A DNA stretch of 64,000 bases from Gelidibacter salicanalis (GTDB taxonomy: Bacteria; Bacteroidota; Bacteroidia; Flavobacteriales; Flavobacteriaceae): contig NZ_JAEHJZ010000001.1 of the NCBI RefSeq assembly GCF_016469035.1, positions 37,417 to 101,416 on the forward strand, given 5' to 3'. Below, one piece after another: positions 40,963 to 43,724 of this stretch; the first letter of the stretch is position 1; the number at the start of each line of letters is the position of its first letter. Under the pieces are notes generated by a model, which was given only the letters and a program-made list of their open reading frames with translations, was not told the DNA's origin and did not search any database. The translations under genes and the position numbers were made by a program.

Positions 40963-40979
40963 CCAATATTTTTTTTACA

Positions 40980-41798
40980 ATGATTATACAAAAAACACGA
41001 GAAGAAATAGAGTTGATGCGCGAAAGCGCACTCATTGTTTCCAAAACTTTAGGCATGTTGGCCAAGGAAGTAAAACCAGGTGTTACGACCATGCAATTGG
41101 ACAAGATGGCTGAAGAATTTATTCGAGAACAGGGTGCCATTCCTGGATTTTTAGGTCTTTATGATTGTCCGTCTACTTTACTTTGTAGTACCAATGAAGC
41201 CGTAGTTCATGGATTACCTACCAATGTACCTTTAAAAGAAGGGGATGTGGTAGCCATTGACTGTGGGGCCATAAAGAATGAATTTTACGGAGACCATGCC
41301 TATACCTTTGAAATTGGCGAAGTGACTCCTGAAAATAAAAAACTCCTTCAAATTACCAAAGAATCTTTATATGTTGGTATTAGAGAGCTGAGGGTAGGCA
41401 ATCGTGTGGGTGATGTTGGCTATGCCATTCAACAGTATTGTGAAGCTGAAGGTTACGGTGTGGTCCGTGAATTGGTAGGACACGGTTTGGGTAAAAAAAT
41501 GCACGAAGACCCTGAAATGCCAAATTATGGCAAACGCGGACGTGGAAAGAAATTTATTGAAGGGATGGTTGTGGCCATTGAGCCTATGATCAATTTAGGG
41601 ACGCATCGTATCAAACAATTGGATGATGGTTGGACAATTGTCACTTTAGACGGCAAACCAAGTGCACATTTTGAACATGATGTTGCCATTATTGATGGGA
41701 AACCAGAAATCTTGTCAACTTTTGGGTATGTTTATGAAGCCTTGGGGATTGTATCTGATGAGGAGGAGGAGTTTAGGCGGGAGGCATTGGTTCTTTAG
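40980..41798 (+). CDS. map: Methionine aminopeptidase, type I
   Basis: Dimetal enzyme that removes the initiator methionine from nascent proteins. The substrate histidine is in VVHGLPTN. The metal ligands are seen in VVAIDCGAIKNEFYGDHAYTF (two aspartates), GHGLGKKMHEDP (histidine), AIEPMI (glutamate) and HFEHDVAI (glutamate). It is 272 residues from the chosen ATG. A repeat-flanked GxxExxY gene lies directly downstream. Confidence 0.96.
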   Translation: MIIQKTREEIELMRESALIVSKTLGMLAKEVKPGVTTMQLDKMAEEFIREQGAIPGFLGLYDCPSTLLCSTNEAVVHGLPTNVPLKEGDVVAIDCGAIKNEFYGDHAYTFEIGEVTPENKKLLQITKESLYVGIRELRVGNRVGDVGYAIQQYCEAEGYGVVRELVGHGLGKKMHEDPEMPNYGKRGRGKKFIEGMVVAIEPMINLGTHRIKQLDDGWTIVTLDGKPSAHFEHDVAIIDGKPEILSTFGYVYEALGIVSDEEEEFRREALVL

Positions 41799-41802
41799 CT
41801 CT

Positions 41803-41844
41803 TTCACGGAGATGCGCGGAGGATTCACTGAGATACACTGAGAG
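41803..41844. repeat. Left array of four phased heptamers flanking the GxxExxY gene
   Basis: CACGGAG (41805), CGCGGAG (41815), CACTGAG (41826) and CACTGAG (41836) start at intervals of 10, 11 and 10 bases. The array ends two bases before the GxxExxY start codon, so it also occupies the ribosome-binding region. Confidence 0.8.
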
Positions 41845-41846
41845 TT

Positions 41847-42224
41847 ATGAACGATAAATTGACGGAACGCATTATTGGAGCAGCCATAGAAGTTCATAGA
41901 ACTTTAGGTCCTGGATTGTTGGAGTCAGCATATCAAAAGTGTTTATATTTTGAACTTAAATCTCAAGGTTTTGATGTGCAACAAGAAATTCCGCTACCCA
42001 TTATTTACAAAGACATTAAGCTTGATCATGGCTATCGAATTGATTTATTGGTCGAGAATGAGGTTGTTATAGAAATAAAAACTGTCGATAAGTTCACTGA
42101 TGTCCATTACGCGCAAATATTAACCTATTTAAAATTGGGGCATTTCCCTAAAGGATTGCTCATTAACTTTCATACTAAACTTTTAACTACAGGTATCAAA
42201 CGTTTCATTAATTCACCTCTGTGA
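41847..42224 (+). CDS. GxxExxY protein, PD-(D/E)XK nuclease-like
   Basis: A 125-residue protein with the family's defining motif GLLESAY. A nuclease-like core follows: aspartate in YRIDLLVENE and the E-x-K pair in VVIEIKTVD, as in the PD-(D/E)XK superfamily. The family is widespread and patchy among bacteria, and its biochemical role is not established. The gene is bracketed by two inverted heptamer arrays, and its last codons (S-P-L-stop) lie inside the right array. This compact arrangement suggests a mobile unit rather than a host gene. Confidence 0.88.
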   Translation: MNDKLTERIIGAAIEVHRTLGPGLLESAYQKCLYFELKSQGFDVQQEIPLPIIYKDIKLDHGYRIDLLVENEVVIEIKTVDKFTDVHYAQILTYLKLGHFPKGLLINFHTKLLTTGIKRFINSPL

Positions 42225-42259
42225 ATCTCTGCGTTTTCTCTGTGAACCTCTGTGTAACT
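42213..42259. repeat. Right array of four phased heptamers, inverted
   Basis: CTCTGTG (42217), CTCTGCG (42227), CTCTGTG (42238) and CTCTGTG (42248) are again spaced 10, 11 and 10 bases. On the minus strand they read CACAGAG, CACAGAG, CGCAGAG and CACAGAG, i.e. the same family as the left array in opposite orientation. The array overlaps the end of the GxxExxY gene and stops two bases before the next gene. Confidence 0.8.
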
Positions 42260-42261
42260 AC

Positions 42262-43026
42262 TTGAAAAAACTCTTTAAAATAATCCTCAACACCATCCCA
42301 AGGCCCATTTTGATCCGGTTGAGCTATGTGGCACGCCCTGTTTTAGCTTTCTTTTTAAAGGGTGACCGATTTACGGATCCTATAGATGGAAAGAGTTTTA
42401 AAACCTTTTTGCCTTATGGCTATGGTACCCAGCGCAACAATGTACTATCGCCCTCTACATTGAGTTTGGAACGCCACCGCTTATTGTGGTTGTATCTCAA
42501 CAGTGAAACGGATTTTTTTACTGTACCAAAAAAAGTTTTGCATTTTGCACCGGAACAGGCATTTTACAAACGTTTTAGAGCAATGAAGCATTTGGATTAT
42601 GTGACAACCGATTTGAATTCGCCATTGGCAGATGTGAAAGCGGATATTTGCAGTCTTCCGTTTAGAAACGATGAATTTGATATCATTTTATGTAATCATG
42701 TATTGGAACATATTCCGGACGATACTAAAGCAATGCAAGAATTATATCGCGTTATGAAACCTGGAGGGTATGGTATTTTTCAGATTCCGCAGGATTTGAA
42801 TAGAGCAGAGACTTTTGAAGACGATAGTATTACGGATCAGAAGGAACGCGCGGCTATTTTTGGACAATATGATCATGTTAGGATTTACGGTAGGGATTAT
42901 TTTGACAAGCTTCGCTCTATTGGTTTCGAGGTTGAGGAAGTTGATTTTACGGCGACGCTTTCTGATTCTGAAGTGACGCAGTATTGTTTGGCGAAAGGGG
43001 AGATTATTCCGGTGGTGCGGAAGTAG
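42262..43026 (+). CDS. Class I SAM-dependent methyltransferase
   Basis: A 254-residue methyltransferase of the Methyltransf_11 type. The region KVLHFAPEQAFYKRFRAM replaces a standard motif I, and motif IV/V text is FDIILCNHVLEHIPDD, then VMKPGGYGIFQIPQ. The first 40 residues are basic and hydrophobic (KKLFKIILNTIPRPILIRL), suggesting membrane association. The start is a TTG directly after the repeat array, so the normal upstream region appears to have been displaced or replaced by it. Substrate unknown. Confidence 0.87.
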   Translation: MKKLFKIILNTIPRPILIRLSYVARPVLAFFLKGDRFTDPIDGKSFKTFLPYGYGTQRNNVLSPSTLSLERHRLLWLYLNSETDFFTVPKKVLHFAPEQAFYKRFRAMKHLDYVTTDLNSPLADVKADICSLPFRNDEFDIILCNHVLEHIPDDTKAMQELYRVMKPGGYGIFQIPQDLNRAETFEDDSITDQKERAAIFGQYDHVRIYGRDYFDKLRSIGFEVEEVDFTATLSDSEVTQYCLAKGEIIPVVRK

Positions 43027-43724
43027 AATTTATTTAAGGTGTTATTCTCGGGCAATTTATTATTCTTGTTCTTTATGGGATTCCTCCTTTCGTCGGAATG
43101 ACAAAGAAGTGTGTTAATCTTCAGGAAAGTTGTTTAAGAATGAGGTTTCCAATTCTTGTTGATCATTTCAAAAATCAAGAAGAATTTTAGTTACTGATGG
43201 ATTGCACAGAGATACACGGTGTATTGCCTAGTATCGTTTGAACATAGAGGTTTAGAGTTTTTGAAATTTTGAAACAATTGTATAACGGTACACGGATTTC
43301 TGGATTTTCACCTTCCTTATGGGATTCCTCCTTCGTCGGAATGACAAAGTAGGGTGTTGATCTTCAGTAAAGTTGTTTAAGGATGAGGTTTTTAATTCTG
43401 TTGCATGGTTTTAAAACAAAAGCATAATGTTTATCGGATTTCGGAACAGTTATCTAATCCATTCATAGGCTCTTGTCTGTTACCCTTTCTTATGGGATTC
43501 CTCCTTCGTCGGAATGACAAAACAATTCCATTGTTGGAATGACAAAATAGGTCCTTCGTGGGAATTATAATATCTTTAATTTTTAGGGAAGATGTTTAAG
43601 GTTTTATTTGTGCATTCTTAATAATCGCGAAGGAGCCTGAGTATGGGATTCCTCCTTCGTCGGAATGACAAAACAGTTATTTTTTTTTTTGGGGATTCCT
43701 CCTTTGTCGGAATGACAAAGATTG
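43027..43724. repeat. Palindrome and gene-tail ladder downstream of apbE
   Basis: A 698-base non-coding region. Five copies of a roughly 30-base palindrome-bearing unit (GATTCCTCCTTCGTCGGAAT core, then GACAAA) begin near 43075, 43319, 43492, 43643 and 43691. Between them lie copies of the 3' end of apbE: 43114-43188 (about five differences in 76 bases), 43357-43410 (more decayed) and possibly 43574-43617. Two weaker palindromes follow the third unit. A two-unit CACAGAG-type fragment is at 43205-43221. No gene is supported. Confidence 0.75.

Follow-up and report, generated by a model that had tools for sequence, protein, structure and literature searches.

A RAYT gene is itself flanked by the repeats of its REPIN/RAYT system. 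REPINs are repeat doublets arranged as inverted repeats, which are dispersed over extragenic positions, are predicted to form hairpins and belong to repeat groups related to a specific enzyme (PMC3116915). BrickBuilt, a MITE of Porphyromonas gingivalis, is built from IS5-type tips and 23-nt inner repeats and is accompanied by a 4-base target duplication (PMC4596501). The 23S rRNA intervening sequence is described as a selfish element 428 nt long that carries a single small ORF (PMC4990558), and the Geobacter 'multicopy nucleotide sequences' (PMC2996986, PMC3543383) may overlap with the arrays described below.

The locus compared here with these systems is located in the window, which denotes the whole stretch of 64,000 nucleotides that was analysed, and it consists of an array-gene-array block of 450 bp (41805-42254). 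The left array (41805..41842, plus strand) reads CACGGAG-atg-CGCGGAG-gatt-CACTGAG-ata-CACTGAG with words 10-11-10 bp apart, and is followed by the gene of a 125-aa GxxExxY protein (41847..42224, plus strand; TIGR04256 / PF13366 PDDEXK_3) bearing G21, G23, E26, Y29, D66, E76-x-K78 and Q90xxxY94. The right array (42217..42254, minus strand) is inverted, reads CACAGAG-gtt-CACAGAG-aaaa-CGCAGAG-att-CACAGAG on the minus strand and overlaps the stop codon. The insertion site is bordered on the left by a putative methionine aminopeptidase (map) gene (40977..41798, plus strand), whose start codon was chosen by the analyst, and on the right by a methyltransferase-like gene with a TTG start (42262..43026, plus strand), both named as in the earlier note. 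A palindrome-like dispersed repeat around GGATTCCTCC..CGTCGGAATGAC is situated just 3' of the methyltransferase gene (about 43075-43105 of the window) and recurs in the same genome (L006, about 1750-1780).

When the sequence was re-read, the four heptamers per side named in the original prediction were found at 41805, 41815, 41826 and 41836 on the plus strand and at 42217, 42227, 42238 and 42248 on the minus strand, together with the 10-11-10 spacing of both arrays, their opposite orientation with inward-pointing words and the single CGC-type unit in each. Two distances had to be revised, since the left array ends at 41842, four bases and not two before the ATG at 41847, and the right array ends at 42254, seven bases and not two before the TTG at 42262, where the next gene probably starts. 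The right array had also been said to include the last codons and stop of the gene; the overlap holds, with the stop TGA (42222-42224) beginning within the first word of the array. The 38-base pattern CRCNGAG-3-CRCNGAG-4-CRCNGAG-3-CRCNGAG, searched with one mismatch allowed, gave two matches in the window, one per side and both mismatch-free, and 0 matches in 100 dinucleotide shuffles of the window. In silico, the two arms form a strong duplex (-37.5 vs -18.1 +/- 3.6 kcal/mol for 200 base shuffles). The genome of the window (5.16 Mb in 682 contigs) contains 8 GxxExxY-family profile matches, of which five are almost full-length.

Among known systems, REPIN/RAYT comes closest in anatomy and is likewise characterised by inverted doublets, dispersal, predicted hairpins and a relation between repeat group and enzyme. 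However, RAYT is a tyrosine transposase working with REP palindromes, whereas a PD-(D/E)XK protein is combined here with helically phased word arrays; a RAYT transposase gene is absent from the unit, whose sole gene is of PF13366. The unit is not a REPIN/RAYT member, because its enzyme belongs to an unrelated family and its ends have another construction. With insertion sequences and MITEs it shares terminal inverted repeats, which are present here, as well as gene-less derivatives and intergenic sites, but it lies outside the insertion-sequence definition, as it encodes no known transposase and a target duplication was not recognisable. The 23S rRNA intervening sequence with its S23/four-helix-bundle ORF is comparable as a tiny selfish element with a single small ORF, but the protein is unrelated and the arrays of the free-standing four-helix-bundle genes examined here have a period of 7-8 bp instead of 10-11 bp.

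The window protein is assigned to TIGR04256 with 152.7 bits (curated cut-off 35, E 4.8e-45) and to PF13366 PDDEXK_3 with 146.7 bits (curated cut-off 22, E 4.6e-43). The GxxExxY motif and the Asp...Glu-x-Lys core that had been read from the translation are present, the latter as D66 and E76-x-K78, and Q90xxxY94, a RecB/Cas4-type QxxxY motif, is additional. Across 27 sequences, D66 is invariant, E76 and K78 are conserved in at least 90%, the order corresponds to the PD-(D/E)XK core, and the Q90xxxY94 and GxxExxY residues are also invariant or nearly so. The gene is intact in 7/10 genomes of the window's genus, where the seven intact orthologues give a dN/dS of 0.035 (median dS 1.42), the neighbouring methyltransferase giving 0.046 in the same genus comparison; judged by its sequence, it is in this genus a working gene under strong purifying selection and no relic. 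From the conserved D66, E76-x-K78, Q90xxxY94 and GxxExxY residues and the low dN/dS, the protein is taken as a selected and probably active nuclease.

No DDE, serine or tyrosine transposase family was recovered when the window protein was scanned against Pfam along with 26 relatives, and a PDB sequence search returned no relative, its single match (E 0.84) being read as chance. Cas4 is known for the conserved cysteines of its iron-sulphur cluster. The D-E-x-K-QxxxY region of the GxxExxY proteins matches Cas4/RecB-type nucleases weakly (PADLOC Cas4b at E 1.8e-4; weak Pfam Cas_Cas4 matches in 15/27 family members at E<=0.1), whereas the invariant or nearly invariant columns of the 27-sequence alignment include no cysteine. 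A published annotation comparison mentions a gene given as cas4 by one tool and as GxxExxY by a second (PMC8934634). GxxExxY proteins occur in 194/392 genomes sampled from the window's phylum, about half, and the domain was also observed within 883-aa open frames, a possible fusion, in G084:C9, G096:C22 and G112:C1.

The array pattern is genuine and, within the loci sampled, general. Upstream flanks of 160 bp were locally aligned with the reverse complement of the downstream 160 bp, a score of at least 16 being counted, and distal control pairs were taken 600-800 bp away at the same loci. The expectation that GxxExxY loci of many genomes would carry flanking arrays was borne out at 166/244 distinct loci of all samples, after removal of 14 repeated proteins (176/258 before removal, four samples pooled), with a period of 10/21/31 bp; inverted flanks were undetected at 78/244 (about 32%) and were found in only 23/443 adjoining ORFs of at least 100 aa at the same loci. 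Sample 1 comprised 121 loci from the own genome, relatives and a phylum search, which were part of the places listed, and 85/120 loci with full flanks reached the score, compared with 0/118 distal pairs and, among 1200 mismatched pairs, 11.9%; as mostly best-scoring places were taken, this sample holds an excess of the GLLE subfamily. Sample 2, the best 80 of 574 relatives with titles mostly from Bacteroidota, gave 52/76 loci with full flanks (control 2/68), and sample 3, 40 loci found using proteins of two other subfamilies, gave 23/40 (control 0/37). Sample 4 was drawn from eight genomes whose titles place them outside Bacteroidota (reached through loci titled Opitutaceae, Opitutae, Spartobacteria, Anaerolineae, Anaerolineales, Acidobacteria, Planctomycetota and Treponema) and gave 16/26 positive loci (control 1/23), 8 of these 26 being places already in sample 2; 30 of 31 matches were used, L366 being without a usable frame, and three loci had short flanks. 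Eight plasmid records matched, 3/7 of those examined showing a flank inverted repeat of at least 16 (L287, L288 and L289, with guessed gene borders in the unannotated record of L288; H5 left out), and phage genomes yielded no GxxExxY match. On a Sphingomonas parapaucimobilis plasmid (L290), the GxxExxY gene lies between fabD and fabG, with a CGCGAAG-type array seen by eye upstream only.

In the sample 1 flanks, the self-match excess over the distal control peaks at lags 10, 21 and 31. CRCNRA[G/T] words number 2.74 and 2.73 per flank in the inward orientation, 0.73 and 0.75 in the outward one and 0.39 in the distal control. GPGLLES-type proteins are accompanied mostly by CRCNRAG words, the outermost of which is often preceded by TTAAC; G(F/H)(S/N)E-type proteins by CACGAATtt-CACGAAT words, often with GA or AA just outside; and GFQEVIY-type proteins often by TGTCTGAA followed by phased NNGATT words. 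Labelling by simple word counts assigned 151/245 loci, and the thresholds left 94 unlabelled. Among labelled loci, GLLE goes with CRCNRAG in 117/122 (remainder 3 CRC..ATT and 2 NGATT, the GLLE locus L115 probably being mislabelled by the thresholds), G(F/H)(S/N)E with CRC..ATT in 9/9 and GF(Q/P)E with NGATT in 16/16; GFLE loci comprise two CRC..ATT and one NGATT, and one CRCNRAG locus has no readable motif. On the protein tree, the labels require 6 changes versus a shuffled mean of 31.6 and minimum of 28 (200 shuffles), a contrast that shared ancestry inflates. Paralogues with different words are found within one genome in 6/22 genomes (G000, G037, G042, G089, G112 and G157), many others holding unlabelled loci. 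Array word and tip go with the protein clade.

Within the words, C3 and A6 are invariant in four sets of orthologous arrays and C1 in three, the finder being biased towards the reported word, and positions 2 and 4 are as variable as the spacers. The arms of one element resemble each other more than other arms of their class (mean rank 0.884, n=117). For left arms at the map site, the match to their own right arm barely exceeds that to the right arm of a foreign species (rank 0.587, n=27), and many arms keep the words without keeping pairing spacers. Arm-to-arm pairing as a selected trait was rejected, because own pairs barely beat foreign ones at the map site.

Genes of the four-helix-bundle family (TIGR02436) showed inverted word arrays at 19/30 best-scoring loci (L382-L411; control 1/30), with a period of 7-8 bp and few CRCNRAK words (0.18 per flank); one such locus is in the window's own genome (L003, G000:C13:20907-21227). 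Since these genes have inverted arrays of their own, such arrays are not unique to the GxxExxY nuclease: in this comparison, arrays of 10-11 bp set the GxxExxY family apart, while inverted word arrays in general extend beyond it.

The map/methyltransferase junction was located in relatives by means of the downstream methyltransferase and was read in 30 loci of the family (from 114 matching genomes), in 30 of 60 of a second genus and in 10 genomes of the window's genus. The second genus is probably Flavobacterium, the protein of L123, which is from that group, being the same as that of L194, titled Flavobacterium frigidimaris. Seven junctions of the family set are empty within about 10 bp, two hold about 19-30 bp, seven are filled as array-gene-array (two of them from the window's genus), two contain a broken gene with relic arrays and 12 have other contents. 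In the second genus, five are empty, three hold 25-29 bp, nine are filled with the CRCNRAG class and six with the CACGAAT class, five are otherwise occupied, and two are deletion derivatives, L281 with arrays only and L286 with a truncated gene between array relics. The window's genus presents seven intact copies, one broken copy of the same class and two junctions with CACGAAT-type arrays (L250, L256). The empty junctions of 0-10 bp carry no array. Given empty, filled and two-class junctions, the array-gene-array block is counted as present or absent as a whole, and at one junction two subfamilies occur, each with a different word. Empty sites, an exact one of which had been sought in the original prediction, were seen; they are from other species and do not fix the exact tips. 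The closest filled and empty pairs are only 85-92% alike around the insertion site, and no convincing target duplication was found outside the arrays at 15 loci of two word classes. Compared with L284, L263 and L274 have a junction of 28-29 bp, which could be either a scar left by excision or a spacer of unrelated origin. In L145 and L168, the final GTG of the right array is apparently the start codon of the downstream gene.

Arrays are also encountered without the gene. CRCARAGNNNCRCARAG was counted in 392 genomes of the phylum, matches beside genes included, and at least three matches were present in 74/194 gene carriers versus 4/198 non-carriers, with means of 5.3 and 0.44, in statistics that ignore phylogeny; the copy numbers among carriers are related with a Spearman coefficient of 0.41, and 120/194 carriers have fewer than three matches of this one word pattern. 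One genome (G411) has 16 array matches, the gene being undetected. Among the matches listed, our own count of opposite-strand neighbours within 150 bp gave 18 inward and 1 outward, and all 18 gene-less places read, 16 of which were chosen for such a pair, split into inward arrays with 9-94 bp between them. Gene-less heptamers, whose occurrence at random places and unphased was to refute the unit of the original prediction, do exist elsewhere, yet they are phased. By eye, several gene-less pairs (L343, L348, L349) fill the space between what are likely a stop and a start codon. Spacers agree between the arms of one copy in G411 and G348 and not in G246 or the second genus, own arms match no better than foreign ones in two of four gene-less sets, and the three gene-less copies that were folded form long hairpins in silico. 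Dispersed inverted doublets related to the gene-side repeats, as in REPIN/RAYT, are found in these other genomes; in the window's own genome, gene-less arrays are mostly single and one-armed and not inverted pairs.

Two further arrangements were observed in the own genome. At L136 (G000:C220:113840-114729), the 3' half of a full-length GxxExxY gene recurs behind that gene, together with the right half-array, in three tandem copies of about 180 bp, each of which stops where the array stops. At L134 (G000:C401:88186-88625), tandem units of about 140 bp consist of a CACNGAG array followed by inverted ATTCGTG-type words, so that two classes are combined.

The array-gene-array block behaves as a unit, as shown by sites that lack it, by insertions belonging to different subfamilies, by its decay products and by array pairs dispersed without the gene. 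The explanation which we regard as somewhat more probable than otherwise is that the block is a minimal insertion element, the phased arrays serving as its ends and being recognised by its own PD-(D/E)XK protein, with binding, cutting and transposition as predicted activities. In the original prediction, the protein was proposed to recognise the phased sites and the block to move as a unit; the second half is well sustained by the 166/244 flanks, the empty and filled junctions and the gene-less derivatives, and the first half is suggested by the clade-specific words and partly constrained positions. Binding of the arrays by the protein would agree with the match of clade and word, the one-turn spacing and the constant word positions, and the insertion pattern points to the protein as the putative mover of the unit. 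Cooperative binding of several protein copies to the words, all on one helical face, could join the two arrays or hold a hairpin into which they fold. The protein might then cut near the outer array tips, and host repair would copy or move the unit, often into short junctions between stop and start codons, with array pairs lacking the gene being served in trans.

An unlikely alternative is that the arrays are dispersed repeats and that the gene spreads only through cuts which its nuclease makes in gene-less arrays, being copied in by host recombination between arrays, in the manner of homing endonuclease genes. I-Ssp6803I is a homing endonuclease of the PD-(D/E)XK fold, and such genes are similar as small nuclease genes forming possibly selfish units, but here the gene lies between genes and not in an intron, and arrays travel with it. 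The commonness of gene-less arrays in many carrier genomes, the own-genome tandem 3'-half copies that each end at the array end, and different subfamilies at one junction, which could be replacements, are all compatible with this course. However, a split direct-repeat array would leave halves of the same orientation, whereas the observed halves are inverted; moreover, the empty junctions of 0-10 bp lack any array, and the words follow the protein clade, so that arrays seem to arrive with the gene.

We hold it to be distinctly less probable still that the arrays are operators of the protein, for autoregulation or silencing, in a cassette spread by ordinary horizontal transfer which the protein does not mobilise. 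Arrays that end four bases short of the start codon on one side and cover the stop codon on the other, a strongly conserved gene and clade-specific words, which suit any DNA-binding role, would be consistent with such operators, but gene-less inverted pairs and the array-only remnant L281 are unexpected for private operators, and the catalytic residues are conserved. Pairing of the inverted arrays in the transcript as a processed or protective stem, like that of 23S rRNA intervening sequences, is quite improbable: it would accord with the strong in-silico duplex of the window arms, the long hairpins of three gene-less copies and the spacers often common to both arms of one element, yet the helical 10-11 bp period and the invariant C3 and A6 (found with a finder biased to the word) suit double-stranded DNA sites, and many arms retain the words but not pairing spacers. 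That the arrays are host repeats and the gene merely tends to sit in repeat-rich junctions, as dispersed arrays without the gene might suggest, is largely refuted and extremely improbable in view of the controls (distal pairs 0/118, neighbour ORFs 23/443) and of a word class that depends on protein clade even within one genome.

Returning to the minimal insertion element, a wider proposal, to which we give slightly less than even credence, is that GxxExxY units constitute a new class of minimal mobile elements in several phyla, in which a PD-(D/E)XK protein of ~120 residues would read helically phased arrays with the word and tip of its own clade and move its own gene and gene-less pairs, the four-helix-bundle family representing a second class in parallel, whose period is 7-8 bp. 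The open-access literature searched yielded neither a description of such arrays nor a role for GxxExxY proteins. The anatomy resembles that of REPIN/RAYT with unrelated parts, and the block looks like an undescribed minimal mobile element present in several phyla. The clade-specific arrays offer a concrete candidate DNA partner for each GxxExxY subfamily. If the proposal is true, the arrays would account for a set of dispersed intergenic repeats, and PD-(D/E)XK would join the enzyme superfamilies that spread genes without a classical transposase.
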